Virus record (IMG/VR): IMGVR_UViG_3300006810_000306
Span: 1 to 27,074 of that record
Source: a virus
DNA: 27,074 bases
Strand: one strand, 5' to 3'
Numbering within the stretch: position 1 is the first letter of the stretch; the number at the start of each line of letters is the position of its first letter. This document shows positions 1,053-26,260 of the stretch, piece by piece. Both the position numbers and the translations under genes were made by a program. The notes under the pieces were generated by a model. The model ran no database searches. It saw only the letters and a list, made by a program, of their open reading frames with translations, and was not told the origin of the DNA.

Positions 1053-4000
1053 TCAGTTTCTTGTTCGTTTTCTTCTTGTTCTTGTACGTTTCTTTCTTGT
1101 TTTAACTTTAGGTTTATCAGCTTTATTTTTGCTACCTTCAAGTGTCCACTTAGGCCAACCACCAGCCATAGCTATTCTTTGCCACCAGTCATTTTCCTCG
1201 TCTAACGCACCTTCTAAATTTTCATATTTTAAAAGTATTCTATCTAAAGGTATGTTAGTTGTAGCAGATACTACTTTAGCAGCAGCTAAATAAGCTGGAT
1301 TATCTAAAGCAAAACCTTTATCAAACATCTCTTGTCGTCTTTTCTTACTATCAAACTGCCAACCAGCTTGTCTTAATTTAGATATTTTAGAACCAATTGG
1401 TGGAGCAAACTGTAGTAACTTCCATACAGAATCTGTATATTCAGGTCTTGATCTACCTGATCTTTCATATATGTCCATTAAAAAGTTTTTACCTACAGAA
1501 ACTAAAGCACCTCCAATACCTAAACCTCTAAGTGTAGAATCTAACATACCATTTAAAGTATTATAAACTTTATCATTGTCATCATCTTCTTCACCAAAGC
1601 CTAAAGCAAACATTGCTTGTTGTAGCGCATTGAATATTATATTTTGTACTACACCATAATATATTATTTTACTAACATTAGCTTTACTACTGCCTCTACC
1701 AGCTGCTAAATCTTGAAAAGCTCTTTTTTGTAATCTAGCATATTGCATAGGTGTGTTAGCAAACATAAGTATTAAACGACCAATATCACTTGATTGTTGT
1801 TGAGATATTTTATCAGGTCTACTAGACTGTTGAGACTCTTCAGATATTTCTCTAAACTCTGTCATAGCTTTAGCTTTAGCTTCCGCTTCGGTCATGCCTT
1901 CGTTTTCCATTAAATCTATTATTCTATTACGATAAAATGTAGCACCACCTAAAGCTATAGCAAAACTATCAGCATATTGAGTTGGTAAATAACCTTTTTC
2001 CATTATATAAGATAAAACAGCCTTAGCTTTATTCTTCGATGTTTTAGCTAAATCAGCTATTTCAGATTCATTTATATTTATTCTAAGACCATCTCTTCTG
2101 TCTCTTAAAAAATCAGAGTTCATAAGTGTCATGAAGTCTTTCCAATACTGGCCTTGATTAGCAAAAGCTTTACCGGCTTTTATAGGATTATTAAAACCCC
2201 AGTTTAAAAAGTTAACTGCAGATATTGTTTGAAGTATAGCTGATCTAGTATTAAAGAACATAATAGCGGCATTAGATCCGTTTATATAATTAAGTATTCT
2301 ATTGCTTAATCTATTACCTGTGCTAGTTTTATTTCTACCACTCTTCATTCTTTGTAAAGAGTTTTCTAAAGCTTCTCTAAACTTAGGACCATATATAGCT
2401 TCTATCTTATTTAAATTTTCTTTACTAAATATAACATCTGCATTGTCTTGCCACTCTTTTAAAAATGCAGAACGTTTAGTAGTATTTAAACCGTCTATTA
2501 AGTCAGTCGTTATAGTTCCAGCTAACCAACCTTCTTGTGGTGCAGGGTATGGATCTTTATTTATTTGAGCTAACTGATCTGCAAACTGCTTTAGTGTAGG
2601 ATCACTTTCAACTACATCAACTAATTCTTTAGTATCTGTTTTTGATAGACCAGGTATTGCTACACCTTGTTTATTCCATAAATAAACTCTTACAGCTTGC
2701 TCATTAGTAAAGCCATCAACAGCATCTTTAGCTAATGTTTTAGGAACATTTAAATCTTTCTTTAATTTTCTAAAGTCGTTCATTAAATTAACTCTAGCTG
2801 TGGATAAATTTTCCATAGCTCTAGCAAAAGGATCAAACAAGTTTTCTTTATACCAAGCCATTTGTGCATCACCTAGTTTTCCTTTACCTAAAGTTTTATA
2901 TAATAAACCTGTAAAATCTTCAGCAGAAGGTGGTATCCAGAATTTAAATCTACCTTTGTTTGCACCTCTAACTTTTGCTTTAGCTTCTGAATATCTTTTT
3001 TCAGATGCAATACCAGATTTTTGTTCTAGTATTTTATTAAAATCTCTATCTAAATCTTTAGCAGCTTTAATTTTAGCTTGTTGTACTTTAGACTTAACAT
3101 CAATAACACTTAAAGCTTCTCTTACTGCTTTTACGTTTTGGTAAGCATCATCAGCAAAATAAAAATCATTATATCCATCAGCTGCTTTATCTATTATCCA
3201 GTTGGCTTTTGCTTCACCTGTAGAATTACCTAAACCTGTTATATTTTCTATAGGTATATCAAGACCTTGACTATCTAAAAACTCTTTAATAGCAGCTTGA
3301 GATTCAGGTGCTCTTGCTGTTAATACAAAAACGTCTTCTGTACCTCTAGCTTCTTGTATTTTTTTAGCTATTTTAAGTAATGGTCCTTCAGCACCTTTGG
3401 TTACTTTATTAAATTCAGAAAAATCAAATACATAACCTTCGTCTAACAATGATTTACCTTGTGTTGCAAACTCTTCAGCGTTTAATTTACCTTCAGTTCC
3501 ATCAGGTGCGGTAAATAATACATCGCTTTCTGTAGTAGCAAGCGTATCATCAAAGTCAAACACTCTAATTTTTTTAACAGGAGCATTAGGATCACGAGCT
3601 ATTTTTAAAGCTTCATCAATTGTTTTAGCTTTACTAAGTACCTCAAACATACTCATGTCTTCTTCAAGATTTAGTACACCAGTTTCTTTTAACATTTCTT
3701 GATCAACTCTAGATGCTTCGTCTTTTGAAGCCATTAATCTTTTAGTGTTTAATTTTTCTTGTAATTTACTTTTAGCAAACTCAGATTTATTTTGACCTGT
3801 TATTGGATTTTTAAAGTTATTTTCTAAATCGTTAATTACTTTACTTCTTAAAAAAGATAACTTACTAGTAGTACCAAAAGCTTTATCTTGCACATCAAAC
3901 AATACCTTAGGTCCTAATTCTTGATCGTAGTCTACCATAAGCTCTATAGCTTTTTCATTGAAAGCTTTTAATATAGACACACGTTTGTAAGCTCTACCAT

Positions 4001-7000
4001 TTTTAATTTGCTTAGCAAAATCTATCATAGCTTTAGTAACTTCGTAATTAACTAAAGCAGAAGCTTCCATATGTTCACCTTTAAATCTTAGCACGCTCAT
4101 TAATACTTTAGGATCTAAGTTACCATTAGTATATTCTACAGCTGCTTTATAATCAGGATGTTTTTTATTTATTTCTAGTCTTTCTTTTACTTCAGGTTTA
4201 GCACCAGGTGGGTTTAAACTCATATAGTATTTACCCGTAACTGGATCGACAACAGGAGCTTGACTAACACCTTCTATTATTTGAACAGATGTTAATCTAC
4301 TTAAACCTCTTGGGCCATTTACATTGTTAGTATTAGATTCGTTTAATCTTAATATACCAACTAAATTATCAGGATTATCAGCTATAATATCTAACATTCT
4401 AGTTTGCAAGTAAGCTAAAGCTGGCACGTTGTTTGCATTAGCTGCTGCTATTCTATTACCAAATTTATCTTGTATTTCTTGCAGCTTATTACTTGAGTCT
4501 GATATTAATATTTTTTGTATACCTAACATCAGGCCTTTACCAGCATTTAATATTTCTATTTTTCTAGGATCAAAACCGTTTTTCTTTTTAAACGCTTCAA
4601 CATCTGCTTCAGAAACTTTAGAAGTTATATTATTAAATTGTTTTTCTAAGTCTTCATATATTTTAATATCTTCTTCACTACCTTTTCTTAGATCTTTTAA
4701 AGCTCTATCAACCATACCAAACATAGACTTACCAAAATACTTAACAGCGACTGGATCTAGATTATTCATTAGAGCAGAAGAAGCTGTAGCCATTTGCTTT
4801 AGCGATTTTATATGAGTATCTTTATTTACTCTACTAAAATTATCGTCAGCATACTCTTGTCTTTGCTTAGCAAACTCTTCACCAAATAGTTCTGCTTCAT
4901 TTATCAAAGGTCTTCTAAATCCCATTATAGCTCTACTTAGCAAGTAAGATATTTGAGGATTTTCATCTATTGCCTTTATAACACCTGCAGGTAGCTTCAT
5001 TTTTTCTAAATTAAATTTAGCTACTCTCCAACCTTTTCTAGCGCCATCATTTAAAAACTCTTCAATTCTACTACCTACATCTTTTGAAAATTTAAAATCA
5101 ACACCTCTACCAACTTCACTTGCTATTTCTAACATCTCATCTGCTACTACATCGTCACCCATTAGCATATCTCTTTTCTCTCTTATATCTTCACTACGTA
5201 AAACTTCTTGCGCTGCGTCTAATCCTAGTTCTTCGCCTATTACTTCTGCTAATGCTGTTTGTTTTGAAGCAGGTCTACCAGTTGGCGGATCTAAATGATA
5301 TTCAATAAAACGCTCTTGATTATAAGGAGCTTTTTCAAAAACTAAATTCCCAGCTTTAGGATCTTTAACTCTTGTACCAGCTTGTTGAGACTGATCTACA
5401 GTCATACGTTTTTGTTTGCCAGTTTCTTGATCTATAACAGGTTTTTTAAATGGTGCAAACCTTTTATTAAAAGTACGCTGTGGTACTTTATTATATATAG
5501 CTTCACCATAAGTTTCTAAAAATTGTCTGTACTCAGGTGAACTTGGCTTGCCCATAAGCTTTTTAACATCAGCCATTAAGAACTTTCTAAATTGTTTCTC
5601 TAGCTCTGTAATAAACTTTCCTGACTCTACAGTTGGCAGCTTAGTTCCGAATGTCCTAGAAACAGTATTAACAACCTTCTCAAACAACGGGTCTCCTTCT
5701 TTTATGTCTAATTGTTTACGTAAGCTTTCAACTTCTTCTTCTAGTTTAGTATCTAAAGCTGTTTCTTCTTCTGCAGCTATATCAACTCTTTCAGAAATAT
5801 CTTGAGTAAAGTCTGTACCAAAAAATTTATTAGCTATTTCTATACTTCTAGTCCTGTAACCTGTAGTAGGAAAATTAACAAATGAACCAAGTGTTACATT
5901 TTCTTTATACTCATCTGGTTTAGCATTGTAAGCATCTATTAAATTAACAATACCTCTAGGCCCAGTTAATATTTCATCAACTACAATATCTTTGTATATG
6001 TCAAAATCAGGAACTTGGCTATATTTATTTTTAACAAAGTCTGTTACTTCACGTCTAAACTCTTCTGCTATTTCAAAAGCATCGGCACCTTCTTCTTGTA
6101 GTTGACTTATTACAGAATCTTCAGCACCTTTAATTCTAGTGCCACGCTGGTCTCTAACAGCTTTACGTTTACCTTCTAACTTTTCAGAGCTTTCTTTTCC
6201 TCTTCTTTTTAAATCTTCTGATATGTCTATACCTTCTTCAGCAGCACGTCTTATTGACTTAGATAATTTACCTTTTTTAAACGATCTGTTATAGTCTCTT
6301 AAAAATCTAAATACATCTTCTTCAGTTTCAAACTTCAACTTACCAAATCTTCCAGGTGCTACTGTTGCTGCTAATCTTTGTACAAAATCTTTTATTTTCT
6401 CTGTAAAAGTTCTATCAAATTTAACAATTCCATACTCCATAGCTTCACTCATTATAGTCATAGCTTCTTCAGCCGCTTCTGGTGTTGTAACATCTGGATC
6501 CTTTAAATAAGCATTTAATCTTTTATAAAAATAAGCAAGCTCACCTCTTTTTCCAGGCTTACTAGTGTCTATTGTTTTAAGTTTATCTTTAATAGCTCTA
6601 GCCATTCCTAATGCATTTTCATCACCTTTAGCTATTGTGGCATTTAATACAGAGTGTAAAACTTCATGAGCACCAGTAAAATAATCACCACTATCTTTAA
6701 TTCTTTTCTGATTTAACAATATAAATTTCTCTCCAGTATTAAGATCCTCAACAAAACTACCTTTATTACCTCTTGCTTGTTTACCACCAGATAAACCTTT
6801 TTCTTCCATAAATGCTTCAATAGCAGCATCGTCTTCTAGTTCAACGAATTTAGTATTTAATCCTTCAGATATTTTAGCACCTTTTTTATTTATATCTTCT
6901 GCTTTTACAAACTCAGTTTCTATAAAATTTATTTTTGAAAGCTTAGCTTTTTCTTCTTTTATTCTTTTGTCGATGTCTCCTTGAAACTCAGGTTCTAATC

Positions 7001-9731
7001 TTTGCTTTTGTCTTTCTAAAGTTTTAATTTTAACCATAGATTCTATAGCATCTTTCTTACCTTCTTGACTAAATTTTTTAGGTACCTTACTACCAGAGTT
7101 TCTAGTATCAGCTATAGCATCCATCTCATCTTGATACTCTTGTTCTGTAAATGTTTTTTGAGTAACAGGATTCATTTTAAAAGTACCATCTTTATTTTTG
7201 TACTTTTCATCTACGCCTTTTATTATTTTTTCAAATACTTTATTTTGTTGTACTAAATTGCTACCGTCCCAGTTCCACTTAGTCATTAAATCCATAGCAG
7301 TTGCTCTAGCTTCTATACCTAGTTGAGTTGTAGTTCTACCAGCAAATGGTAAAAAAGCTCCTATAATACCTCCAGCTTTAGCTGATTGCAAAATAACATT
7401 AGGATCAATATCATCACGAACATATTCCCAGCCTTTACCTGAAGCTGTAGTACCAATCATGTTTAATGCTTCTTGACCTGCTTCTGTAAACGCTTCTGAA
7501 AGACCGGCTTTACCACTAACTTTCATTGCATCAATTGCTCTAGGTAAAATCTTATCAAACTCTTTTCTGTAAATAGAACCTAATGCACTTTTAATACTTT
7601 TTTTAGATGTAGCTTTTCCTAAACCACTTAACATGCCTTTTACTACTTTAGTTTGACCTAGTTGTTCTAAACTAGCTTGAGCTAAAGCAGAACCAGCTAA
7701 AAGAGCAGTATCAGTATATTTACCATCTAATACAGCTTCCATATAAGCGTTTGGATTATTAGGATCTAAACCATCAGCTTTCATTCCTTTTTCTATAGCT
7801 TCAGAAAAACCATCACCAAAAAATGTAGTAGCATTAGCAAGAACACTACCTGCCATAATAGCAGTTACAGCCGCGGGTGCTGCCCCAACTGTAGAAGCAA
7901 CTCCAGCTGCAACTCCACCAACCATGTAAGGTAATGATTCACCTACACCTAATACTATATCAGATACGCTGGGTATACCTTCCCAATCAGCTTTTTTAGC
8001 TAAGTTTTTCCAAGCTTCTGATTCAAATTTTGTTCTATAGTTTTCTGCTCCTTCTTTTAATAAGCCATCTACTTTTTTATTTTGAGCATCTAGCATTTCT
8101 TTTAACTTAGGACCATACTGAGATCTATCGCCATACTTATCATAAAGCTTTTGCATTCTATCTCTTTCTTGTATTACTCCTTCGTTAGTAAAACCTAAAT
8201 ACCAATTATCTAAATTTTGTTTAGTTCTTACTCCAATATCTACAGCAGATGAAATAGCAGCTTCACCAAGTAAAATACTACCTTGTGTAAGATCAGCAAG
8301 TCCTGGTACATAATCCGAATCCCAAGCACTAGCCATGTCATACATTGCGTCAGTTGTACTATATAAATCACTGGTTGCTCTGCCTAATTCTCTAGCTTTA
8401 TCACTATAAATACTACCAACTGTTTGGCTTATAGCATTTACTCTAGTGTTAAGACCTTCGTCGTTTTTTCTAAGAGGAGCTAGTAATGATTCTCTATACT
8501 TAAAAAAATCTTCATTAGCAGCCCTTTGACTAGCTTCAGTATCTAGTTTGTATTTTTTTAATATAACATTTTTCTTATACTCTTCTAACTGAGGTTCTAT
8601 TGCTTTAGCATAACCTTTTATTTTAGCTTGAACTAAAGGATCTGTGTTAATGGCATCTGACTGAGCTGTTTTAAAATCTAAATTTAAATCTTTTAAAGTG
8701 CTTATATATTTATCTTCAGTATCTAAAGCTTCTAACTCTTCTTCAGTATAGTCTTTGAAAAAGCCACCTGATAAATCTTCAGGATTAATATCTCTAAAAT
8801 TAGACTCTACTCTATCTCTAGTTTTGTTTTCTACACTTTCTCTATATTTTGCAGTTAGTTCAGGTTTTCCTCCGTTTTCTTTTAATTCTCCACCTCTTCT
8901 AAGATGTTCAGCTATCTCTTCTTCTGACATAGATGGTTGATCACTTTCTGGTTGGACCTGCTCAATCTCACCTTGCTCGTTCATTATTGTTTTTTGTTCA
9001 AAACCAAACAATAAGCCTTTAATTAGTGATCCAGCTGTACCAACAACACTATTAGCATTTTCATCATGATCTACTTCATATGTCATCTCTATATCACCAC
9101 CCATCATAGAAGGCATGTGCTTTACATATTCTGTTTTTTGATCTTGAGATAGTTCATCATTATCAAATATCTGTGTTATTTGATTTTCATAAACTTTAGC
9201 TGCGTCTTCTCTATCAAACTCTACTTCTTCATTGTTAATTTCAGACTCATACTTAAATATTTCTGGATATTGTGCTTTTCTAATATCAGCTATCGCTTTA
9301 GTAGCCTCTACTATAGCTTTGTTATCCTCTAAAGAAGCTAATCGCATTTCAAGATTTTGACCTGGCAAGTTTAAACCTGTTTGATCAGACTTCAACTCCA
9401 TACCACCTGTAAATATTTTATTATCACCTATAGTAGTATAGTTATCGTCTTCAAACTGTTGTTGCTTTTCTTGTTTTCTTTTATTATATTCTTCTTCTTG
9501 TTCTGCTAAGTTATCAAACTCTTTTTGAACATCTTCAGTACTGCCCATTTGAGTAGTAACACCACCACCAAACACAGCATTTTTCCACGTATCATAATCG
9601 TCATCGACTCCTAAGTGACCATGAAGCCCTTGCAAATATTCACCATTATCCTTTACAGCGTTTACCCAAGTGTCGTAATCATCATCAACACCTAGGTGAC
9701 CGTGTAAACCTCTTAAATATTCTTCATTCAT
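1053..9731 (-). CDS. Giant polyvalent ejection (internal virion) protein, metallopeptidase + HAD domains
   Basis: This 2892-residue protein occupies the position of T7 gp16, last of four putative ejection proteins. Visible parts, N to C: two 27-residue repeats with core GLHGHLGVDDDYDTW (residues 3-53); a long charged helical region; a hydrophobic Gly/Ala-rich stretch (about 593-645) that could enter membrane; HEVLH at 1022-1026, a zinc-metallopeptidase signature, with candidate third ligands in the Glu-rich helix about 70 residues on; helical middle regions; a HAD phosphohydrolase domain with DFDDTL (D2059, D2061, T2063), VLTAR (T2138), K2175 and ADD (D2194/D2195); a C-terminal region of the large-polyvalent-protein type (YADSFAIALGG near 2580, hydrophobic segment near 2700, WWQRIAMAGGWPKW near 2850); and an Arg/Lys tail. 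It starts two bases after the 543-aa gene. It is probably packaged and injected. The enzyme activities are predictions from motifs. Confidence 0.9.
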   Translation of the reverse strand: MNEEYLRGLHGHLGVDDDYDTWVNAVKDNGEYLQGLHGHLGVDDDYDTWKNAVFGGGVTTQMGSTEDVQKEFDNLAEQEEEYNKRKQEKQQQFEDDNYTTIGDNKIFTGGMELKSDQTGLNLPGQNLEMRLASLEDNKAIVEATKAIADIRKAQYPEIFKYESEINNEEVEFDREDAAKVYENQITQIFDNDELSQDQKTEYVKHMPSMMGGDIEMTYEVDHDENANSVVGTAGSLIKGLLFGFEQKTIMNEQGEIEQVQPESDQPSMSEEEIAEHLRRGGELKENGGKPELTAKYRESVENKTRDRVESNFRDINPEDLSGGFFKDYTEEELEALDTEDKYISTLKDLNLDFKTAQSDAINTDPLVQAKIKGYAKAIEPQLEEYKKNVILKKYKLDTEASQRAANEDFFKYRESLLAPLRKNDEGLNTRVNAISQTVGSIYSDKARELGRATSDLYSTTDAMYDMASAWDSDYVPGLADLTQGSILLGEAAISSAVDIGVRTKQNLDNWYLGFTNEGVIQERDRMQKLYDKYGDRSQYGPKLKEMLDAQNKKVDGLLKEGAENYRTKFESEAWKNLAKKADWEGIPSVSDIVLGVGESLPYMVGGVAAGVASTVGAAPAAVTAIMAGSVLANATTFFGDGFSEAIEKGMKADGLDPNNPNAYMEAVLDGKYTDTALLAGSALAQASLEQLGQTKVVKGMLSGLGKATSKKSIKSALGSIYRKEFDKILPRAIDAMKVSGKAGLSEAFTEAGQEALNMIGTTASGKGWEYVRDDIDPNVILQSAKAGGIIGAFLPFAGRTTTQLGIEARATAMDLMTKWNWDGSNLVQQNKVFEKIIKGVDEKYKNKDGTFKMNPVTQKTFTEQEYQDEMDAIADTRNSGSKVPKKFSQEGKKDAIESMVKIKTLERQKQRLEPEFQGDIDKRIKEEKAKLSKINFIETEFVKAEDINKKGAKISEGLNTKFVELEDDAAIEAFMEEKGLSGGKQARGNKGSFVEDLNTGEKFILLNQKRIKDSGDYFTGAHEVLHSVLNATIAKGDENALGMARAIKDKLKTIDTSKPGKRGELAYFYKRLNAYLKDPDVTTPEAAEEAMTIMSEAMEYGIVKFDRTFTEKIKDFVQRLAATVAPGRFGKLKFETEEDVFRFLRDYNRSFKKGKLSKSIRRAAEEGIDISEDLKRRGKESSEKLEGKRKAVRDQRGTRIKGAEDSVISQLQEEGADAFEIAEEFRREVTDFVKNKYSQVPDFDIYKDIVVDEILTGPRGIVNLIDAYNAKPDEYKENVTLGSFVNFPTTGYRTRSIEIANKFFGTDFTQDISERVDIAAEEETALDTKLEEEVESLRKQLDIKEGDPLFEKVVNTVSRTFGTKLPTVESGKFITELEKQFRKFLMADVKKLMGKPSSPEYRQFLETYGEAIYNKVPQRTFNKRFAPFKKPVIDQETGKQKRMTVDQSQQAGTRVKDPKAGNLVFEKAPYNQERFIEYHLDPPTGRPASKQTALAEVIGEELGLDAAQEVLRSEDIREKRDMLMGDDVVADEMLEIASEVGRGVDFKFSKDVGSRIEEFLNDGARKGWRVAKFNLEKMKLPAGVIKAIDENPQISYLLSRAIMGFRRPLINEAELFGEEFAKQRQEYADDNFSRVNKDTHIKSLKQMATASSALMNNLDPVAVKYFGKSMFGMVDRALKDLRKGSEEDIKIYEDLEKQFNNITSKVSEADVEAFKKKNGFDPRKIEILNAGKGLMLGIQKILISDSSNKLQEIQDKFGNRIAAANANNVPALAYLQTRMLDIIADNPDNLVGILRLNESNTNNVNGPRGLSRLTSVQIIEGVSQAPVVDPVTGKYYMSLNPPGAKPEVKERLEINKKHPDYKAAVEYTNGNLDPKVLMSVLRFKGEHMEASALVNYEVTKAMIDFAKQIKNGRAYKRVSILKAFNEKAIELMVDYDQELGPKVLFDVQDKAFGTTSKLSFLRSKVINDLENNFKNPITGQNKSEFAKSKLQEKLNTKRLMASKDEASRVDQEMLKETGVLNLEEDMSMFEVLSKAKTIDEALKIARDPNAPVKKIRVFDFDDTLATTESDVLFTAPDGTEGKLNAEEFATQGKSLLDEGYVFDFSEFNKVTKGAEGPLLKIAKKIQEARGTEDVFVLTARAPESQAAIKEFLDSQGLDIPIENITGLGNSTGEAKANWIIDKAADGYNDFYFADDAYQNVKAVREALSVIDVKSKVQQAKIKAAKDLDRDFNKILEQKSGIASEKRYSEAKAKVRGANKGRFKFWIPPSAEDFTGLLYKTLGKGKLGDAQMAWYKENLFDPFARAMENLSTARVNLMNDFRKLKKDLNVPKTLAKDAVDGFTNEQAVRVYLWNKQGVAIPGLSKTDTKELVDVVESDPTLKQFADQLAQINKDPYPAPQEGWLAGTITTDLIDGLNTTKRSAFLKEWQDNADVIFSKENLNKIEAIYGPKFREALENSLQRMKSGRNKTSTGNRLSNRILNYINGSNAAIMFFNTRSAILQTISAVNFLNWGFNNPIKAGKAFANQGQYWKDFMTLMNSDFLRDRRDGLRININESEIADLAKTSKNKAKAVLSYIMEKGYLPTQYADSFAIALGGATFYRNRIIDLMENEGMTEAEAKAKAMTEFREISEESQQSSRPDKISQQQSSDIGRLILMFANTPMQYARLQKRAFQDLAAGRGSSKANVSKIIYYGVVQNIIFNALQQAMFALGFGEEDDDNDKVYNTLNGMLDSTLRGLGIGGALVSVGKNFLMDIYERSGRSRPEYTDSVWKLLQFAPPIGSKISKLRQAGWQFDSKKRRQEMFDKGFALDNPAYLAAAKVVSATTNIPLDRILLKYENLEGALDEENDWWQRIAMAGGWPKWTLEGSKNKADKPKVKTRKKRTRTRRKRTRN
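9570..9725 (-). repeat. Tandem 81-bp (27-aa) repeat in giant protein N-terminus
   Basis: Residues 3-26 and 30-53 of the giant protein are near-identical (x-E-Y-L-x-G-L-H-G-H-L-G-V-D-D-D-Y-D-T-W-x-N-A-V), with a period of 27 residues. The DNA copies differ at many third codon positions: GVDDDYDT uses ggt gtt gat gat gat tac gac act in the first copy and gga gtc gat gac gat tat gat acg in the second. The duplication is therefore old and maintained at protein level. Confidence 0.9.
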
Positions 9732-9733
9732 AC

Positions 9734-11365
9734 TTATGATTTATAGCTGTTCGGATTAAAACCAGTTCCTTTAGTTTTAATTTTTGACCCTTTTTTCTTA
9801 TTTAAATAATTATTGTAATCTTCTTTACCTACTTGATATTCTTGGTATGATGTAGCACCTTGTCCTATATCTTTAAATAAATCTTCTTTTAAACTCTGTG
9901 TTATAGTATCAAAATCTAAAGCTTCTATTTCATTTTCAAAATCTTTTTCATCAAAACCATAAGAAGTTATTAAACCTACTAGTGCAGCTTGTTGTGCAGC
10001 TTTATCACCTACTGAAGCTTTTCTCATTTTCTCATCAACTTTCTCTTCCATTTTAATACCAGCTCTAATAGTATTAGCTTTAGTAACGTCATATTCTTTT
10101 CCAGCATCTGTAGTAAATTTTAAAGACTTACCGTCACCACCACCATCAGTAGTAGAAGATTTTGGTGGATTTGCTATTTTACGTTTACCTACAGTCTTAC
10201 TAGCTCCAGCAGATATTGAATTTTCGTCCCACATAGAATTTGACATCCATCTTTTTGCTACATCTTTTTGTGCTTTGTCTATAGCTGCTATTTGTTCTGG
10301 TTCAAGATCTTCTGGATACTCTCCATATACAGAGTTTTGCCATTGCTCCATGGTTATTCCCATTTCATCTAGATTTATTTCTAAATTAGGATCTCCGCCA
10401 CTAGCATAAAAGCCTAGAGTATTTGGTGGATATTCTCCATTTTCGTCTGGCTCACCATCTTGTATAAGATCTTGCCAAACGCTTAGCATTTCTTTTTCAT
10501 TACCTAACATAGGATTAAGATAAGCGCTAGCTTCAACCTCCGCTATAAAATCATTTTTAGCTTCAGTAACAGGTACTTTTATTACTTGCTCGTAACCATC
10601 TTCTAAACCACTAATAGTTTCACCTGTAATAGGATGCTTGTCACCGTTTTTAACTGCTATAGTTTTTACATAATCACTAATACCTGTTTCTTCACCGCTA
10701 AATTTATTCCAACCAGTACTTATTACTCCACTAACATCTGCTTTTTTATTAAATAATGGCTTATCAGCATTAGCATACATTTCAGATCCATTTAACATTA
10801 CACCACTACCTTCAATAGGTTTTCCTTCTTCATCTAATTCTGGCGCCCAGTAATATATAGATCCATCTTTTTCAATAATATCTACGTATCCATTGTTGTT
10901 TAATCTATTTAAAACCTCCTTACTAGCGACAGATCCTGTGCTAGATAACGTGCCGTTATTAATAGACTCAGTTAAATCACTAGCCTCTCCATATAGTTTT
11001 GAAGTGTTAGACTTAAACATAGGAATTAAATTTTCTATCTGTTTATTTCTTATCATAGCTTCTCTCTGCGTTATCTCACCGTTGGCTGCTAAATTTAAAT
11101 TATTAACATAATCTTCAATTTTTTCGTCCCAAAATTTAACAGTGCTATTCATTGCTTGACCAGCACCTGGTTTAGTAAACTCATTTACTTTGTCTCTTAA
11201 TTGTGACTCTTTATCTATATTGTCTTGTTGTAGTTTTTTGTCAAATGCTTTTTGCGTTTTAACAACATCAAAAAAACCTTGAGAAGTCTTATTGAAACTA
11301 TCAGCCGTTTTATCTAAAGCATCAAATTCTTTGTTTCTTATTCTCTGTGGATTACTATAACTCAT
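9734..11365 (-). CDS. Putative internal virion (ejection) protein, T7 gp15-like position
   Basis: A 543-residue hydrophilic protein of unrecognised family. The N-terminus (MSYSNPQRIRNKEFDALDKTADSFNKTSQGFFDVVKTQKAFDKKLQQDNIDKESQLRDKV) is strongly helical and coiled-coil-like. The middle has acidic loops (ELDEEGKPIEGSG; EYPPNTLGFYASGGDPNLEINL). The C-terminus ends with a basic segment (NYLNKKKGSKIKTKG). No signal peptide or membrane segment is evident. It sits between the 226-aa membrane-active candidate and the giant polyvalent protein, with gaps of 11 and 2 bases, the place held by gp15 in T7. By position it would be the second-largest component of the trans-envelope ejection channel. The function is inferred from synteny, not from motif. 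Confidence 0.7.
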   Translation of the reverse strand: MSYSNPQRIRNKEFDALDKTADSFNKTSQGFFDVVKTQKAFDKKLQQDNIDKESQLRDKVNEFTKPGAGQAMNSTVKFWDEKIEDYVNNLNLAANGEITQREAMIRNKQIENLIPMFKSNTSKLYGEASDLTESINNGTLSSTGSVASKEVLNRLNNNGYVDIIEKDGSIYYWAPELDEEGKPIEGSGVMLNGSEMYANADKPLFNKKADVSGVISTGWNKFSGEETGISDYVKTIAVKNGDKHPITGETISGLEDGYEQVIKVPVTEAKNDFIAEVEASAYLNPMLGNEKEMLSVWQDLIQDGEPDENGEYPPNTLGFYASGGDPNLEINLDEMGITMEQWQNSVYGEYPEDLEPEQIAAIDKAQKDVAKRWMSNSMWDENSISAGASKTVGKRKIANPPKSSTTDGGGDGKSLKFTTDAGKEYDVTKANTIRAGIKMEEKVDEKMRKASVGDKAAQQAALVGLITSYGFDEKDFENEIEALDFDTITQSLKEDLFKDIGQGATSYQEYQVGKEDYNNYLNKKKGSKIKTKGTGFNPNSYKS

Positions 11366-11376
11366 ATTTTACTTTT

Positions 11377-12057
11377 TTATTTTGAAAGTTGTGCGAAATT
11401 ACCAGCCGCCTGCATCATAGAGTCACCCATGCCTGATATTGCTTTTATTCTAGAACCTCTGGCATCAGCAGCATTCTGCATAGCATTATCAGCTAAAGTA
11501 GCAGCTCTATCCATTTGCATTTCTTTAAATCTAATAGCATCTTTTTGAACAGTAAGATCTGCTTGTCCCATTAATTCTTGTAATCTTTGAGCTCCTTGAG
11601 CTTTTGCTTTTTCTACACTAGCTTGACCTTCCGCTCTCATTTTATTATTTTGAGCTTCTTGAGCGTTTATACTAGCAGCAATACCTCTTTTACTTTCAAG
11701 AGCAGCTTGTGCTAAAGCCGTTGCGCCCCCAGCAGCTTGACCTGTTTCCATCATTGCGTCCAAGCTATTAGCTAACGCTTGGTCAGCTTGTTCTGCTTGC
11801 ATTTTAAAAGCTTCGGTGGCTACAGTCAAATTCGCGTAAGGATTGTTTAAATCCTCAAACTCGTTCTGCATATTATCATATGGATTAGTCATAGTAGGTC
11901 TTTCTGCTTCTAGCGCTGCTAAAGCGTCTTGTTGTTGTTGAGCTATTTCCTGTTGTCTAGCTGCTTCTTTTTTAGCCTTATTAGCAGCTACAGCGCCAGT
12001 TACCACACCGCCTATTGCTGCTACCCCACCTGCTATTGCTCCTGCTTTTTCTCCCAT
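11377..12057 (-). CDS. Putative internal virion protein, T7 gp14-like (membrane segment + Ala-rich helix)
   Basis: 226 residues. Residues 5-24 (AGAIAGGVAAIGGVVTGAVA) form a Gly/Ala-rich hydrophobic helix that could insert into the host outer membrane. It is followed by a long Ala/Gln/Glu-rich helical region (KAKKEAARQQEIAQQQQDALAALEAE..., QASVEKAKAQGAQRLQELMG) and a short hydrophobic C-terminus. T7 gp14 (about 196 aa) has the same size class and place in the operon and forms the outer-membrane portion of the ejection channel. Similar Gly-rich N-termini are frequent in gp14-like proteins of podoviruses. The gene lies 5 bases after the GNAT-like gene. The assignment rests on architecture and position. 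Confidence 0.7.
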   Translation of the reverse strand: MGEKAGAIAGGVAAIGGVVTGAVAANKAKKEAARQQEIAQQQQDALAALEAERPTMTNPYDNMQNEFEDLNNPYANLTVATEAFKMQAEQADQALANSLDAMMETGQAAGGATALAQAALESKRGIAASINAQEAQNNKMRAEGQASVEKAKAQGAQRLQELMGQADLTVQKDAIRFKEMQMDRAATLADNAMQNAADARGSRIKAISGMGDSMMQAAGNFAQLSK

Positions 12058-12062
12058 AATGT

Positions 12063-12467
12063 TTATATTAATTTAATCATTTCAAAGCCTGCTTCATCTT
12101 CGTCAACGAACCAGTTTAATTTTTTATGTCTATCTACTACAGACTTACTTTTTCCAAGTGCCAACATACACTTAACACCTTGTTGCATACATGTTAATTC
12201 TGCTGCTTGTAACAATACTTCCATTGCTTTACCTCTGTCGTCTTTTCTATAGTTAGGATCAGAAATAGGCCAAGCAATCCATGCTGTTTTAGAATTAGTA
12301 AAATATATAAAGCAAGCTGCAATTTCCTTGCCTTCATTAACTACCATTAATCCGCCAGTTGCGTTATCTGGTAAAGTTTCTTTTGCCGGTGGTATTTTCC
12401 AGCCATAAGCTTTCCACCACTCTTCTAAAGTCTCATAATCAGACTCTATTAATTTTCTTATTTTCAT
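12063..12467 (-). CDS. GNAT-fold protein, T7 gp13-like (internal virion protein A)
   Basis: 134 residues with the layout of a GNAT N-acetyltransferase. The start MKIRKLIESDYETLEEWWKAYG forms strand 1 and helix 1. Strand pairs follow (GGLMVVNEGKEIAACFIYFTNSKTAWIAWPISDP), then the acetyl-CoA loop and helix region (NYRKDDRGKAMEVLLQAAELTCMQQG) and a C-terminal strand (AGFEMIKLI). The canonical Q/RxxGxG/A pyrophosphate loop is only partly kept (DDRGKA), so catalysis is doubtful. T7 gp13 is 138 aa, and gp13 equivalents in many marine podoviruses have a GNAT fold. Here the gene directly precedes the gp14-like gene, matching that arrangement. A morphogenetic role in assembling the internal core is more likely than acetylation of a substrate, though a protein-modifying enzyme cannot be excluded. 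Confidence 0.75.
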   Translation of the reverse strand: MKIRKLIESDYETLEEWWKAYGWKIPPAKETLPDNATGGLMVVNEGKEIAACFIYFTNSKTAWIAWPISDPNYRKDDRGKAMEVLLQAAELTCMQQGVKCMLALGKSKSVVDRHKKLNWFVDEDEAGFEMIKLI

Positions 12468-12477
12468 TTAATTTAAT

Positions 12478-14415
12478 TTATTGTGAAGATATAGAATAAT
12501 TCAATCCTATAGAATATAACTCTTTAAAACCACCTGGATCTGTAGTTAAATCTGTGCTAAATTCAATGTCTATATAATATCCTTTTATACCAGATATTAC
12601 ATTACCAAATCTAACTTCGCCCTCTGCTGCTGTAGAATTATTAACTATATTAGCTACATATTTGTTTTCTTTTCTGTCAAAGCCAGCTCTAAGCAGTGGC
12701 GCGTTTTGAGGATTAGCAGAGGTACCCGTGTTTCCAGCACTATCATAAGCGCCATCTACGTAGCTATATATACTTAAAGACTCGTCATTGGTTCTTTCCC
12801 AAGTACCTGTCCAAGCACCACCTGTAGTTCTGGTTGTTGAAGCGCCTGTTTTGTCAGAAGATAATAAATTAGCTTGCCAACCGCTATCACCTTCGTAATA
12901 TATTGTTAAAAAGTTTTTTTGTAATGATGGCTGTGAATTTGCAACAATAGAAACTACAGCTCTATTATCTCTACCATAAAACTGGCAATGAGGTATAGTA
13001 TTAACATAATGTTGATACATACCTTGTTTTATTTCTACAGAACCCGTAGATACATTGCTTGCGTTCCAGTATCTATTATTTAAAGTTAAAAAAGTATTTT
13101 TACTACTACCTATTGCTATAGGTGCATAGCTATAAAAGCTAGGCCAACCTTTCACTTGCTCGTCATATCCTAAAGTATAAAAATCTCCACTTGGCTTAGG
13201 AACAGTAGCCGCACCCGCTGGTTGAGTATAAACAGAAGCTTTATTTTCTTGTATAGATAATACATATTGTTTATTATAAGCATCCCAGCCTCCATAAACT
13301 CTACTTCTATTATCAGATACTAATCTTATTTTAGTTATATTTTGTATTTGAGCTTGTGGTAGTGTTCTGTTCATAAGCAAAAACGCATCATTATTATTAC
13401 GTCTCATACCTATACATATAACATTTAAATCTACAAAGTCATTTGGAGCAGAGCTATATGCTACTAATATTCTTTTACCTAAAGTACCTATTTGTTTTGT
13501 TGGGCTTATAGGATCAGTTGGTGTACCAAAAGATATACAGCTTTGATTATAGTTAGCTGTTGAAGAAGCGCCTGTACCTAAATCTAAATTTATCTCAAAG
13601 TAGTTAGTGTAATCATCATTCAAACCGCTTAAGTTGTCTCTAAACCAGTCACGCATGCCGTATTCTGATATTTCAGTAATACCATTTCCAGATAACCTTA
13701 ACACCGCATTTCTATTTCTATCAACAAAATATTTTCTAAAAGCATACACTGCAAAAGATTCTGGATTTTTACTAATACCGTACTCACCTGCATAAGGTAC
13801 TATTTCACCTAATACTTGTCGTTGACTAGTAACACTACCTCCACCTTCAGCGTTATATATGGCATTTTTATCTATTAAAGCTCTACTACATTTGTTTTCT
13901 TGTAGAACAACAATATCATTTTCGTCAGCATATATTTTCTGTATAGATCCATATTCAGGACTAGCAGCTCTAGTTATATTTGTACCTACAGGAAACTCAT
14001 TAGTTCTATTTATACCTGTTCTAGAATTAAATATACCAGAGTATATTAAAGCGTTTAATCTGTGTTGCTGTAAAGGTTCTTCTTCATTTAAATAAGCTCT
14101 AACACCTAAAGACATAGAGTTATTGTTAAAACCGCCTCTAATATACATTTCTTCAACAATAAAGTTTTGTATCGTAACTGATTCATCTTCTGTTACACCT
14201 GTAGAATTCCAAGCAACTAAATCACTAGTTGTTAAAAATGTTAATGGCGGTGCTAACACATTGTTAAGTGGCCATACCCCATAAGCAGCAGAAACACCGC
14301 TACCGCCTGGTACTATAGCAGCTCCAGTTTGCTTAATAGGCTGTGGCGTTAATATCTTCTTATTCCAAATACAATTGTAATAGTCTACTTCTATAATAGG
14401 TAACTGATTAGCCAT
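12478..14415 (-). CDS. Beta-rich tail protein (645 aa), candidate hub/muzzle or receptor-contacting component
   Basis: 645 residues, Asn/Ser/Thr/Tyr/Gly-rich with short alternating strands typical of phage tail proteins; no signal peptide or membrane segment. The start MANQLPIIEVDYYNCIWNKKIL follows a 29-base A/T-rich gap after the 1482-aa gene. A region around residues 205-260 (EYGISKNPESFAVYAFRKYFVDRNRNAVLRLSGNGITEIS) resembles conserved segments I recall in tail/stabilisation proteins of crAss-like and marine podoviruses. Because no separate fibre or spike gene is visible downstream, this protein and the C-terminal half of its 1482-aa neighbour are the best candidates for the tail tip. Exact identity is uncertain. 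Confidence 0.65.
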   Translation of the reverse strand: MANQLPIIEVDYYNCIWNKKILTPQPIKQTGAAIVPGGSGVSAAYGVWPLNNVLAPPLTFLTTSDLVAWNSTGVTEDESVTIQNFIVEEMYIRGGFNNNSMSLGVRAYLNEEEPLQQHRLNALIYSGIFNSRTGINRTNEFPVGTNITRAASPEYGSIQKIYADENDIVVLQENKCSRALIDKNAIYNAEGGGSVTSQRQVLGEIVPYAGEYGISKNPESFAVYAFRKYFVDRNRNAVLRLSGNGITEISEYGMRDWFRDNLSGLNDDYTNYFEINLDLGTGASSTANYNQSCISFGTPTDPISPTKQIGTLGKRILVAYSSAPNDFVDLNVICIGMRRNNNDAFLLMNRTLPQAQIQNITKIRLVSDNRSRVYGGWDAYNKQYVLSIQENKASVYTQPAGAATVPKPSGDFYTLGYDEQVKGWPSFYSYAPIAIGSSKNTFLTLNNRYWNASNVSTGSVEIKQGMYQHYVNTIPHCQFYGRDNRAVVSIVANSQPSLQKNFLTIYYEGDSGWQANLLSSDKTGASTTRTTGGAWTGTWERTNDESLSIYSYVDGAYDSAGNTGTSANPQNAPLLRAGFDRKENKYVANIVNNSTAAEGEVRFGNVISGIKGYYIDIEFSTDLTTDPGGFKELYSIGLNYSISSQ

Positions 14416-14418
14416 AAC

Positions 14419-14433
14419 TTATAATCACTTGTT
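14419..14433. repeat. 15-bp intergenic repeat, copy 1
   Basis: TTATAATCACTTGTT on plus (AACAAGTGATTATAA on minus) lies in the 29-base gap before the 645-aa tail gene. An identical copy is at 20896-20910. It ends three bases before the ATG on the minus strand. The function is unknown. Confidence 0.5.
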
Positions 14434-14444
14434 TTTTAAAGAAT

Positions 14445-17400
14445 TTATATTTTAAATCTTACTATAAAGTTAGATATTAAGGTTTTAATACCTCTACCAC
14501 CATTATCTGTAGCATATATGTTTACGTCTATGTTTTCATAGTTATATATAGAACCTCCTGAAGTAGCTAATACTACACTACCGCCATCTGTACCGCTGTC
14601 TCTTAAAAATAAACCTATACTTTCAATTTTACTAGCTAATTGATAACCTTGTCCATCATTTAAATCTACCTCTAATGTCCATTGTATCTCTTCAGTATTA
14701 CTATTTTGTGCAGTATTATTAACATTGCTACCGTTAGTGGCAGAACTTAAAGTTGTGCTTGTACTATTATTGTTAGCCCATGGTATAGAAGCTCCAGATA
14801 CGTTAGTTGGTGAAGGATCAAAAGCAAAAGCGTTATTTAAATAATATACGGTACTACCATCGTTAATAAAGTCTGTATTTTTAGCTGGAGCAACATTATC
14901 AATATATATAGTTATAGGTATTTCATAATTACTAGTTATTTGTTGTGTTCCAAAAGTAGCACCACTACTATTAGAAAGTGTATGATTTATTATAGCATTA
15001 AAAGTTATATAATTTAAATCATCATTACCACTGTTGTATCCAGGAAAATCACTATTAAGCTTTAATAATAATCTTTGTGATGCGTCAGTAGTTGAAAATA
15101 ATTCTAAAGTAATACCTGATCCAGCAACAGGTGTACCATCTCTATACAAAGGTGTTGTAATACCTGTCAAGTTATACACATCACTTGCTCCGTTGTAAGC
15201 TAATATATTAGCATTTTGATTTATTAAGTTTATAGTAGCTATAGTTGGTGTTGTGGTATAATCTACATTTTCCTGTACTTCCACTAATTTAACTATATCA
15301 TCCGTTCCAAAGAATAAAAAATTATTTGGTATTGATAATGTGTTTAAAACTAAATCATTTAAATCAGATATTAATCCAGCTGTACTAGTTTCATAGTATA
15401 TATCTATTTCAGATATAGTTGGAGTAGTCTCGTATACAGCAGGTACAAACTCAGCTTCAGATGGTGGCTTGGCTGTTTGAGAACTTTCACCTAAATTAAA
15501 ATGATTTTCTATAACAGCGGTTGGCGGATCTGTGTCTGCTTTGTATAGTCCATTATAACTACCTCTTTTATATAAAGCCTCAAAATTACCTATAGCTGTT
15601 ACTTTAGAAGTAATTGGCGATATACCTGGAAACACGGACATTGCTTCTGTGAGTGTTTGATATATAAGACCTGTTCCACTTGGAAACCTATCTGGATTTC
15701 TAGCAGCCCTAGGTATTAACTCTACATCACTAGTTGAATATTGAACTTGAACTGGGGTTGTTTCATTTAACGCAGGTGGAACTTTATTAGCATTGTCAGT
15801 TAGTAAAGTAGTTACATTTAATACGCCATCACTAGAATTAGTACTAAACACAGCATCTACAGTAGCAGTTGCAACAGCATTAGTAGTTAACTCAAACTGA
15901 GTGTAGTTTAATATATTATTTATATAATAAGTATTTGCACCTGCAACAACCTTCATGCCTTCTAGCAAAGGAAATGTTAAATATTCTATAGTACCTATAG
16001 GTGAAACAGTTACTAATTTACTACCTGAAGTGAATACACAATTTAAGTCAAAAGGTTTTATAACTGGTGTACCGTCAAGTAAACTTGGTAAATATACATT
16101 ATAATAATCTTGTTGAGTTTGTTTAACAACTACTTTGTAACTATTAAAACCTAATGGCTTGTCTTGCACATAAAAACTAACTGTGCTTCCGCTTGCTGGC
16201 ATATCATTAACAGAAATATTGGCGCCATCTAAACCTCTTAATAATACCAAGTTTGTACTACCTCCTAAAAACATATACACAAATAAAACAAAATTACCAG
16301 TTGCTCCACCTACAGTTTCTGTAAACTCTACCCTCATGCCAGGAGCTATATTATCTCCAAGCCCTCCAGCAGTTACACTTATATAGTCAAAAGATGTAGT
16401 ACCTATAGTAGTTGTTAAATAAGCTTCTTTATATAAGCCTGGATAACCAATTAAATTTGGTAATGACGAAGGTATAGTAGTTGTAAAAAGTATCTTTAAA
16501 GAATCACCAGGCCAGTCAACATAACCAGACTTAGGGTTTGGTTTGCTTAATATAGTAGCATTGCTAGTATTAGGCGAAGTTGCTGTTGTATTATATGGAT
16601 GATATATAGTTGATCCGCCAAAAGTTATAGGATTATCTTCAAATGTAGTATTTGTACTGCCAGTGCCTAAAGTGTAGTTAGCATCTAAAGTACTTGATAG
16701 TATTACATCAGAAGATCTACCATATCTGTCTTGTAGTATTAAACCTACTTGATAGTTTCTATTTTGTTTTAAACTATGATTAGGATATGAAACGTTAGAA
16801 TATTTATTAGGTAGTAAGTCTGAAGGAAAATCATTACCGCTGCTAGCTACTTTAGCTGTTTCAGTAGGTGTAAATTTTCTACTAGCACCTACTAAATAAT
16901 TTAAAGTATTAGGTGATGAATGTCTATCAAAATAATTACCTAGTATTACTCTATTACCGGCAGATGTCAACGTTTTAGCTCTTACAGGAACATTGTCATA
17001 TACCCTAGTTGTTTCAGCAGATCTTAATGTTTTAATAGGTTTTCTAGCGTCGTATGTATATGTAAGATTATTAGTAGAATTATTTATTATTAATGGATCA
17101 GTTGCTTCAATAGATTTTATTACATTTATATTTTGACTCATCGAGTCTTTATATAATATATCTATTTCAGAAACTTTTAAATTTTCTTTTAAAGTATTTA
17201 TAGCATACTCACATGGTATTCTAAGACCTATTTGAGTAACTTCATTTTCCATATGAGCTACTATAGTGTTTTGACCTGCTACTCTTTCTTGAGGTATATA
17301 AGCATTTTGATCACTACCTGTTGAATCTTGCTTTCCTATGTTTTTTAGGAAATAACCTTTTTGTTTAGGTATAAATACTTCTTGAGTAAATGGAGATATT

Positions 17401-18893
17401 AAAGAATACTCACCATCATCAAACTTAAATCTATAAGCAAACCTAACAAATTTATCTTTTAAATTATCTGGATCACCAGAGTAATTAGCGTCATAATATT
17501 TATTGGGATAATGTATTTTTACTCTATCACCTACTGCTAAATTTAGTTGTGTTGATATAAATTTTGGCCCGTCATAAGTTCCATTTTGTAAAGAAGTTAA
17601 TTCATATATTTTAAAGAACTGAGACGCTGCAGTAGTATCACTAGGATCTCTTGCTACATAGTATTTTCCTGGATCTAATTTAGGGTGCGTTACTCTACAA
17701 TAACATTTTTTATCAGCAGCTAGAGTGTTTTTTGTAAAATGATTATCTCTAAAAAAAGCTTCTGTTCCTATACCTGTAGCTGTACCAGTTGATGCTGATC
17801 TAGTGCCGTGTAAGTATAAAGCAGGAGCATAATCATAGTTACTACCTGAACTAGCTGAAGCATATTGGAAACCTTGACCAGTAGCTACAATTCCAGTTAA
17901 TTCTAATGTAGCTTGATGCTCTCTAAGCCAAGGTGAACTTACATCTTTTGAGTTTTCTTCTATAAATACTACATCCAAATTTTTAGCAGCAGCTTTTGAA
18001 GATTGTGGTGTACTAGCAGTACTTAAATCTCTATTAGGTACTACTAAAACTTCACCAGTAGAAACACCTTCTCTACTAGCATATTGTACAGTAAAATCCC
18101 AAGACTCATCACCTATTTGTAAAAAGCCTTTTAAACCAATATTACCAGATCCTTGAGTATTTTCTGTACCTAACATTTTTGATAACGTACTACCAACGGT
18201 AGCTGTAATAATAAACGCTGGGTACATAGTGTTAAACGCACCTACATAATACGCCCAGTTTGTAGTTACTAAAGCGGCAGCTGTTTGTAGAGTATTATTT
18301 AATTGTATAGGTTTACTAGGATAATATTTAGCTAAAGATACATGATCTTCGTTAAAGTAATATGATGGATTATTTTCAGCAGTTTCAACATTTATAACTC
18401 TAGGCTGATTTCTATTGTCTGTCCAGAACAATAAATTTTCTATCATTGTAGAATCAAGTATAGGGCTATTAGATGAAAAGTTTAAAAATCCACCTTGAAC
18501 TATAGTTAAAGTTGTCTCTGCTACAAGATCACACATGACTATAGTATTTCTTGTACCTAACGGATTATAATTGTTGATTTGATTTGAAGAGTTATCTTGA
18601 TAATTAGTTGTGAATACATATACTTTGTTAGTGTTTTCATTTACATACCAACCTATAATTTGAGATAAAAAGGCTTCATAATTAGATGTAGCACCTTCTC
18701 TTACATTAGGTATATTTAAAGAGTTTAATATTTTATTACCTAATATATTTTCTAATGCGCCCACATCATCAGACTCTGCTCTAGATACAGCAATGTTTTG
18801 CCCATCTCTATATTCATCAGGAGCCAATAATCTAGCATCTAAGTCTTTATTCATTTTAGACTTAGTAAATGTATGGTTAAATTTTCTTTGCAT
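14445..18893 (-). CDS. Tail stabilisation / tubular protein (P22 gp10 / T7 gp12-like), 1482 aa
   Basis: 1482 residues. The N-terminus MQRKFNHTFTKSKMNKDL continues DARLLAPDEYRDGQNIAVSRAESDDVGALENILGN, a recognisable start of the podoviral stabilisation/tail tubular B-type family common in marine phages. The block KDKFVRFAYRFKFDDGEYSLISPFTQ (about residue 485-510) is also characteristic. The remainder is Thr/Ser/Asn-rich beta structure, including YETTPTISEIDIYYETSTAGL near 1155-1180 and a C-terminal domain with Ig-like strand patterning. It is longer than T7 gp12 (about 794 aa) or P22 gp10 (about 472 aa), so extra C-terminal domains are probably fused. The first ATG is favoured because the family keeps the KFNHTFTK segment. 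It starts 4 bases after the 402-aa ring protein gene. It would sit below the connector as the tail nozzle. Confidence 0.8.
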   Translation of the reverse strand: MQRKFNHTFTKSKMNKDLDARLLAPDEYRDGQNIAVSRAESDDVGALENILGNKILNSLNIPNVREGATSNYEAFLSQIIGWYVNENTNKVYVFTTNYQDNSSNQINNYNPLGTRNTIVMCDLVAETTLTIVQGGFLNFSSNSPILDSTMIENLLFWTDNRNQPRVINVETAENNPSYYFNEDHVSLAKYYPSKPIQLNNTLQTAAALVTTNWAYYVGAFNTMYPAFIITATVGSTLSKMLGTENTQGSGNIGLKGFLQIGDESWDFTVQYASREGVSTGEVLVVPNRDLSTASTPQSSKAAAKNLDVVFIEENSKDVSSPWLREHQATLELTGIVATGQGFQYASASSGSNYDYAPALYLHGTRSASTGTATGIGTEAFFRDNHFTKNTLAADKKCYCRVTHPKLDPGKYYVARDPSDTTAASQFFKIYELTSLQNGTYDGPKFISTQLNLAVGDRVKIHYPNKYYDANYSGDPDNLKDKFVRFAYRFKFDDGEYSLISPFTQEVFIPKQKGYFLKNIGKQDSTGSDQNAYIPQERVAGQNTIVAHMENEVTQIGLRIPCEYAINTLKENLKVSEIDILYKDSMSQNINVIKSIEATDPLIINNSTNNLTYTYDARKPIKTLRSAETTRVYDNVPVRAKTLTSAGNRVILGNYFDRHSSPNTLNYLVGASRKFTPTETAKVASSGNDFPSDLLPNKYSNVSYPNHSLKQNRNYQVGLILQDRYGRSSDVILSSTLDANYTLGTGSTNTTFEDNPITFGGSTIYHPYNTTATSPNTSNATILSKPNPKSGYVDWPGDSLKILFTTTIPSSLPNLIGYPGLYKEAYLTTTIGTTSFDYISVTAGGLGDNIAPGMRVEFTETVGGATGNFVLFVYMFLGGSTNLVLLRGLDGANISVNDMPASGSTVSFYVQDKPLGFNSYKVVVKQTQQDYYNVYLPSLLDGTPVIKPFDLNCVFTSGSKLVTVSPIGTIEYLTFPLLEGMKVVAGANTYYINNILNYTQFELTTNAVATATVDAVFSTNSSDGVLNVTTLLTDNANKVPPALNETTPVQVQYSTSDVELIPRAARNPDRFPSGTGLIYQTLTEAMSVFPGISPITSKVTAIGNFEALYKRGSYNGLYKADTDPPTAVIENHFNLGESSQTAKPPSEAEFVPAVYETTPTISEIDIYYETSTAGLISDLNDLVLNTLSIPNNFLFFGTDDIVKLVEVQENVDYTTTPTIATINLINQNANILAYNGASDVYNLTGITTPLYRDGTPVAGSGITLELFSTTDASQRLLLKLNSDFPGYNSGNDDLNYITFNAIINHTLSNSSGATFGTQQITSNYEIPITIYIDNVAPAKNTDFINDGSTVYYLNNAFAFDPSPTNVSGASIPWANNNSTSTTLSSATNGSNVNNTAQNSNTEEIQWTLEVDLNDGQGYQLASKIESIGLFLRDSGTDGGSVVLATSGGSIYNYENIDVNIYATDNGGRGIKTLISNFIVRFKI

Positions 18894-26147: not shown

Positions 26148-26260
26148 ATCATAACCTAAAACTTTAGCGCCGCTATATAGTGTTTCTATTGATCTACTAA
26201 CTTTGTCAAAGTTATCATTAGACTCAGGATTAAAAGTATCTGGTTTTTCTAATGATTTTT

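Follow-up and report, generated by a model that had tools for sequence, protein, structure and literature searches.

A giant phage protein pairing a zincin-like metallopeptidase domain with a HAD domain of polynucleotide kinase-phosphatase type, and its relatives in marine phages

Gene neighbourhood of the giant

The window analysed here is the whole of a 27,074-base IMG/VR fragment (record IMGVR_UViG_3300006810_000306). A 2,892-residue open reading frame with an ATG start lies on its minus strand, and the gene call made in an earlier note on this DNA, which gave no strand, was upheld. Upstream of this giant on the same strand are portal, scaffold-like, major capsid and tail genes, followed by a GNAT-like gene (134 aa) and by genes of 226 and 543 aa. 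The giant is encoded among virion or late genes, with the portal, major capsid protein and tail genes in one operon-like run. The features of the locus are as follows.

1053..9731, minus strand: putative giant polyvalent ejection protein, 2,892 aa, without cysteine (ORF, ATG start)
9576..9731, minus strand: two N-terminal repeats of about 24 residues (EYLxGLHGHLGVDDDYDTW, twice)
6252..6893, minus strand: zincin-like metallopeptidase domain, residues 947-1160 (model pLDDT 86.3, pTM 0.85)
6654..6668, minus strand: HEVLH motif (residues 1022-1026), predicted two zinc ligands and catalytic Glu (EELFH in a sublineage)
6465..6467, minus strand: E1089, predicted third zinc ligand (invariant in 89/89)
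3057..3584, minus strand: putative HAD phosphatase domain of polynucleotide kinase-phosphatase type, residues 2050-2225 (phrog_415, 3e-6; model)
3540..3557, minus strand: HAD motif I, DFDDTL, with D2059 as predicted nucleophile and D2061 as predicted acid/base (conserved)
3312..3326, minus strand: HAD motif II, VLTAR, with T2138 (conserved)
3207..3209, minus strand: HAD motif III, K2175 (conserved)
3147..3152, minus strand: HAD motif IV, D2194/D2195 (conserved)
1122..3056, minus strand: all-helical C-terminal region, residues 2226-2870, conserved more than any other part (LPD38-type polyvalent proteins have the same fold; dN/dS 0.03)
9734..11365, minus strand: 543-aa protein without cysteine, placed like ejection protein gp15 of podoviruses
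11377..12057, minus strand: 226-aa protein without cysteine, in the position of gp14 and syntenic with phi38:1 gp99, 'virion structural protein'

The earlier note had placed the giant at the gp16 position of podoviruses. Consistent with this, it is the last of three consecutive genes (226, 543 and 2,892 aa) downstream of the tail genes, as in a gp14-gp15-gp16-like ejection set, and the order GNAT-like gene, ~200 aa, ~500 aa, giant is identical in Cellulophaga phage phi38:1 and Flavobacterium phage elemo, where the homologous giants carry the annotation 'structural protein'. The small GNAT-like gene between the tail and ejection genes (12063-12467; phrog_17252) encodes three cysteines and is syntenic in relatives.

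No cysteine occurs in the giant or in the 543-aa and 226-aa proteins, against 25 in about 4,990 residues over the twelve further ORFs that were counted. The counterparts of these three genes in phi38:1, elemo and Maribacter phage Panino likewise encode no cysteine, and across a set of 80 giants the total was 4 cysteines in 233,051 residues. In this the three putative ejection proteins differ from most other virion proteins, in which cysteine is present. The injected virion RNA polymerase (vRNAP) of phage N4 also lacks cysteine, a property that has been connected with its route through tail and periplasm (PMC3715699, PMC2784036). Taken with its position and with the structural-protein labels of its homologues, the lack of cysteine suggests that the phage head probably carries the giant, which would enter the host together with the DNA. 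Depletion of cysteine throughout an ejection set can be used as a simple mark of injected proteins.

The capsid protein is 51% identical to that of a Manatee Spring podovirus, 43% to that of Panino, 42% to those of elemo phages and 36% to that of phi38:1 (Pervagoviridae). The phage is probably a marine, short-tailed member of a Callevirus/Elemovirus-like group, with flavobacteria as the probable host; matches to genome contigs were left out of the host assignment, as these are MAG contigs of uncertain binning.

Several other details of the window were recorded. Similarity to one portal protein passes from frame -2 to frame -1 near 26267-26393, splitting the portal gene (24855-27067), which is likely a frameshift or an assembly error. 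Adjacent genes of 645 and 1,482 aa (12478-18893) match different parts of a single family, phrog_14478, which suggests a tail gene that is split or rearranged relative to relatives. A tRNA-Ala gene (169-243) lies just beyond the giant, and at the same place in Panino (L017, 37240-40003) there are about 17 tRNAs and a tmRNA.

The zincin-like, HAD and C-terminal domains

Neither a tblastn search of cultured phages nor whole-protein searches of Pfam and of the PDB (phmmer) returned a match to the giant, the giants being too divergent for the former. The two motif sets reported by the earlier note were found at the residues that it gave, namely HEVLH at 1022-1026 and, for the HAD, DFDDTL from 2059, VLTAR from 2136 (T2138), K2175 and ADD at 2193-2195. 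When the residues of the giant were shuffled 5,000 times, HExxH arose in 0.72% of cases and the ordered HAD pattern never (0/5,000); conservation of the motifs in homologues is the stronger test, and both sets are conserved.

In the homologue alignment the Glu at the position of E1089 is invariant in 89/89 HExxH domains, and it is likewise invariant in the alignment of 72 domains from which an AlphaFold2 model was made. The model shows a helix, three strands, the HExxH helix and a later helix bearing the invariant Glu (E14-19, E45-49, E56-61, H73-87, H137-153), a zincin core, its HExxH and Glu carried by two helices, that bears out the reading of a metallopeptidase fold. This is the layout described for metallopeptidases of polyvalent proteins, a 3-stranded sheet, an HExxH helix and a Glu on the next helix (PMC5512222). 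The best Foldseek matches of the model were lethal-factor chains, although weak (E 0.09-0.18, probability 0.63-0.84); Iyer et al. tied the N4 domain to the same lethal-factor-type zincin (PMC5512222).

The HAD residues D2059, D2061, T2138, K2175, D2194 and D2195 are invariant in 61/61 homologues. The predicted structure has a Rossmannoid core, and motifs I-IV stand at the ends of those strands that are expected to bear them, so that the intact HAD domain of the earlier note stands; its generic phosphatase, proposed for nucleic-acid ends, nucleotides or a defence signal, can be refined to a polynucleotide kinase-phosphatase (PNKP) type, which favours nucleic-acid ends. The family phrog_415 'polynucleotide kinase' matched the HAD in 5/15 diverse giants (best 5.5e-8; 3e-6 for the window), a significant match to a family that has no curated cut-off. 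The HAD scored 16-20 bits against the DNA 3'-phosphatase model TIGR01664, below its cut-off of 107.65. Fold matches of the HAD model in the PDB included HAD phosphatases (probability 0.93 but E 0.7), among them the small-molecule phosphatases 3qgm and 1zjj. For neither the zincin nor the HAD model did any PDB fold match reach an E below 0.001, and profile searches of the PDB with the zincin, HAD and C-terminal alignments gave chance-level matches only. A stand-alone 187-aa relative of the HAD is present in a 462-kb phage.

The C-terminal model matched many phage polyvalent proteins (PolyVal-ART/LPD) by fold, with E from 1e-12 to 1e-4. A known polyvalent-associated domain (LPD, ART and others) is recognized here by fold only, as none of the Pfam LPD and MPTase models recognized the giant family by sequence. 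Compared with a 89%-identical relative (L001), dN/dS was 0.19 for the peptidase domain, 0.09 for the HAD and 0.03 for C-terminal residues 2226-2870.

Distribution of the domains among relatives

A first scan for relatives yielded 14 loci, and a HAD-profile scan of IMG/VR yielded 401 relatives; analysis was confined to the best 80. All 80 of these HADs lie in giant ORFs of 1,890-3,675 aa, some clipped by contig ends, and in 74/80 an HExxH stands upstream of the HAD, nearly always about 900-1,150 residues away. The remaining six had been candidates for giants without a peptidase domain, and this was rejected; the domain is present, with EELFH at the same aligned place and the downstream EE kept (five aligned directly; L090 was assigned through L088, with which its first 1,850 residues agree completely). 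Among 145 giants chosen by C-terminus, HExxH or EELFH was found in 135 of the 139 left when short fragments are set aside. Judged from sequence, the pairing of peptidase and HAD is common to many related marine phages. The IMG/VR scans returned at least 400 HAD-bearing and at least 500 C-terminus-bearing relatives, which suggests that giants of this kind are a common strategy in marine phages.

EELFH replaces HExxH in L027, L029, L088, L090, L094, L095, L134, L136, L138, L160 and L161, and the third-ligand Glu is kept in these giants where aligned. The group may have a variant metal site or be a pseudoenzyme. The existence of such a sublineage indicates that peptidase activity may be dispensable, and it poses the question of whether the peptidase needs to be active. 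The 3,859-aa Manatee Spring giant (L019) has two HEFGH motifs (1615, 2500) and no HAD, and probably contains two peptidase domains.

The HAD was present in 27/78 giants from the C-terminal scan and absent from 51/78, counts made after L144 was moved to the HAD-bearing class and L195 to the class without. L195 had been scored as HAD-bearing by a loose pattern, which was rejected on reading the sequence. The giant of L144 (3549-12000) is divided between two overlapping ORFs, one of 2,014 aa with HETGH and one of 844 aa whose start is just ahead of the HAD; L144 was moved because of this split, the first ATG in the second ORF coming after the HAD. On a C-terminal tree of the 145 giants the HAD label changes at least 7 times, as forced by supported branches, vs 42 for shuffles; this count scores L144 as lacking the HAD and may be one too high. 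The comparison indicates that the HAD is mostly inherited yet has been repeatedly gained or lost. The combination noted earlier is real, with the refinement that the HAD, absent in many relatives, is an accessory module, while nearly all members of the family have the peptidase domain. Other modules are also present in giants of the group, including a tRNA-methyltransferase-like domain (Panino, 1.7e-16) and DUF3293 (elemo, 1e-12). The giants, L002-L014 included, differ at the N-terminus, where unrelated short repeats or a KYIWNNxEYT-type segment take each other's place; that these are packaging tags is possible, and a guess.

In eight giants (L006, L104-L108, L115 and L116) a P-loop kinase of ~200 residues separates HAD motif I from the remaining HAD, whose motifs are intact after the kinase in 7/8 (L104 is cut off). 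In L158 the same kinase (59% identity) occupies residues 792-955, between zincin and HAD and just after the peptidase. The kinase was accompanied by a HAD in 9/9 giants and never occurred without one among the giants examined. It matched Pfam Zeta_toxin/AAA_33 at about 1e-12 (Zeta_toxin 4.5e-12) and phrog_505 polynucleotide kinase, the bacterial Pnkp model matched it below the cut-off, and one orthologue is named UDP-N-acetylglucosamine kinase. On these matches the inserted kinase appears about equally near to zeta toxin and to polynucleotide kinase. A kinase nested in a phosphatase in one lineage and separate from it in another is a natural experiment in module exchange within putatively injected proteins.

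Proposed role and comparison with known systems

In the explanation that we favour, the giant would be the largest of three cysteine-free ejection proteins, packaged and ejected with the DNA. Its zincin (H1022, E1023, H1026, E1089) would most likely cut the giant itself, before or after entry, and free its modules; a host protein is a possible target. The PNKP-type HAD, with D2059 as nucleophile, would most likely remove 3'-phosphates from nucleic-acid ends, and DNA (or RNA) that host nucleases or stress had broken within the first minutes could then be extended or ligated. Some relatives would contribute a 5'-kinase within the same giant, and the helical C-terminus would be the constant structural or ejection part. 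From sequence, motif conservation, predicted folds, synteny, cysteine absence, module gain and loss and kinase pairing, we infer packaging, injection, cleavage, catalysis and substrate, and we hold with moderate confidence that the giant is a virion-packaged, injected polyvalent ejection protein with a self- or host-cleaving zincin and a PNKP-type 3'-phosphatase HAD. A more specific proposal is put forward tentatively: the phages would inject an enzyme that is a 3'-phosphatase or, in some lineages, a PNKP with its kinase nested in the phosphatase; the zincin would release this enzyme, and it would repair broken ends of the incoming genome ahead of all phage gene expression. If the HAD does heal nucleic-acid ends, repair would be delivered ahead of gene expression.

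Healing of nucleic-acid ends is preferred mainly because kinase and HAD pair up. Among related contigs of at least 55 kb, ATP-dependent DNA ligase was found in 12/16 with the HAD and 3/10 without it (L144 as HAD-bearing); with L144 scored as lacking the HAD, Fisher's test gave 0.11 two-sided, in a post hoc and phylogenetically non-independent comparison with only three independent pairs. No NAD-dependent DNA ligase was found as a HAD partner in the related contigs. The ligase association may be taken as a lead for DNA over RNA ends, not a result. A HAD with or without the kinase might instead heal host or phage tRNAs cut by anticodon nucleases, being delivered at entry and not made later. Such a role would use a PNKP-type HAD and kinase, has a precedent in T4 Pnk/Rnl1 against PrrC (PMC2610378), and would accord with the tRNA genes that adjoin the giants of the window and of Panino; however, the kinase needed for 5' ends is missing from most giants, and no RNA ligase scored over the cut-off in 37 related contigs, a weak objection, as the T4 Rnl1 search had no positive control and matched nowhere. 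We consider tRNA healing quite improbable. Destruction of a small phosphorylated molecule (a nucleotide, alarmone or defence signal), with a zeta-like inserted kinase acting on UDP-GlcNAc, is unlikely. Promiscuity of HADs, the fold matches to 3qgm and 1zjj, the Zeta_toxin match and the name of the one orthologue speak for it, as do the nucleotide-signal enzymes known in polyvalent proteins, but both phrog matches and the NCBIfam leanings point to polynucleotide kinase/3'-phosphatase, and the constant company of kinase and HAD resembles PNKP.

As for the zincin, N4 vRNAP has an HExxH domain yet is packaged uncleaved (PMC5512222), which counts against self-processing. The resemblance of the fold to the lethal-factor type would suit an effector that cuts a host protein and not the giant itself, an alternative proposed for polyvalent MPTases (PMC5512222). 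The domain, however, lies mid-chain among modules and is near-universal while other modules change, which suits a processing role, and we regard the host effector as somewhat unlikely. That neither domain is used catalytically, both being structural folds of an ejection scaffold, would agree with the EELFH variants, with the few giants without HExxH and with the helical C-terminus as the most conserved part. It is nevertheless very unlikely, given that every catalytic residue is strictly conserved in otherwise divergent sequence, that both domains are under purifying selection and that many relatives do without the HAD.

The analysis adds to the earlier note a pair conserved across a large marine phage group, a PNKP-type HAD with a mobile kinase, the accessory nature of the HAD, the EELFH variants, a polyvalent C-terminal fold and a cysteine-free ejection set. 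Among the nearest known systems are phi38:1 gp101 and elemo gp18, which occupy the same position after the same structural genes, are cysteine-free and are labelled structural protein. Unlike the window giant, gp101 has 1,691 aa with no HAD and no HExxH, and gp18 (3,694 aa) has no HAD but has HEIFH and DUF3293.

The earlier note's appeal to polyvalent proteins fits in domain content, gene context and C-terminal fold, the zincin and HAD being two disparate enzymatic domains in one very large polypeptide. As in the polyvalent proteins of Iyer et al. 2017 (PMC5512222), a giant multi-domain protein is encoded beside virion genes, with a zincin MPTase of HExxH and Glu, an LPD38/PolyVal-ART C-terminal fold and exchangeable enzyme modules; unlike them, it carries a HAD, HAD/PNK modules being absent from the main text of that paper, and its family is missed by the Pfam LPD/MPTase models. 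The giant resembles N4 virion RNA polymerase gp50 in size (about 3,000-3,500 aa), in being cysteine-free and one of three ejection proteins, and in having an HExxH domain followed by a large helical C-terminal region (PMC12633501), but differs in that a HAD occupies part of the chain. An N4-type RNA polymerase in the giant was rejected, as Pfam and PHROG scans, which remote versions could escape, gave no RNA polymerase match. With T4 Pnkp/PNKP (phrog_415, phrog_505) the giants share a HAD phosphatase with DxDxT, to which a P-loop kinase is joined in some relatives; they differ in that the HAD is fused into a putative virion giant, and in that the kinase is mostly nested inside the HAD instead of standing before it.
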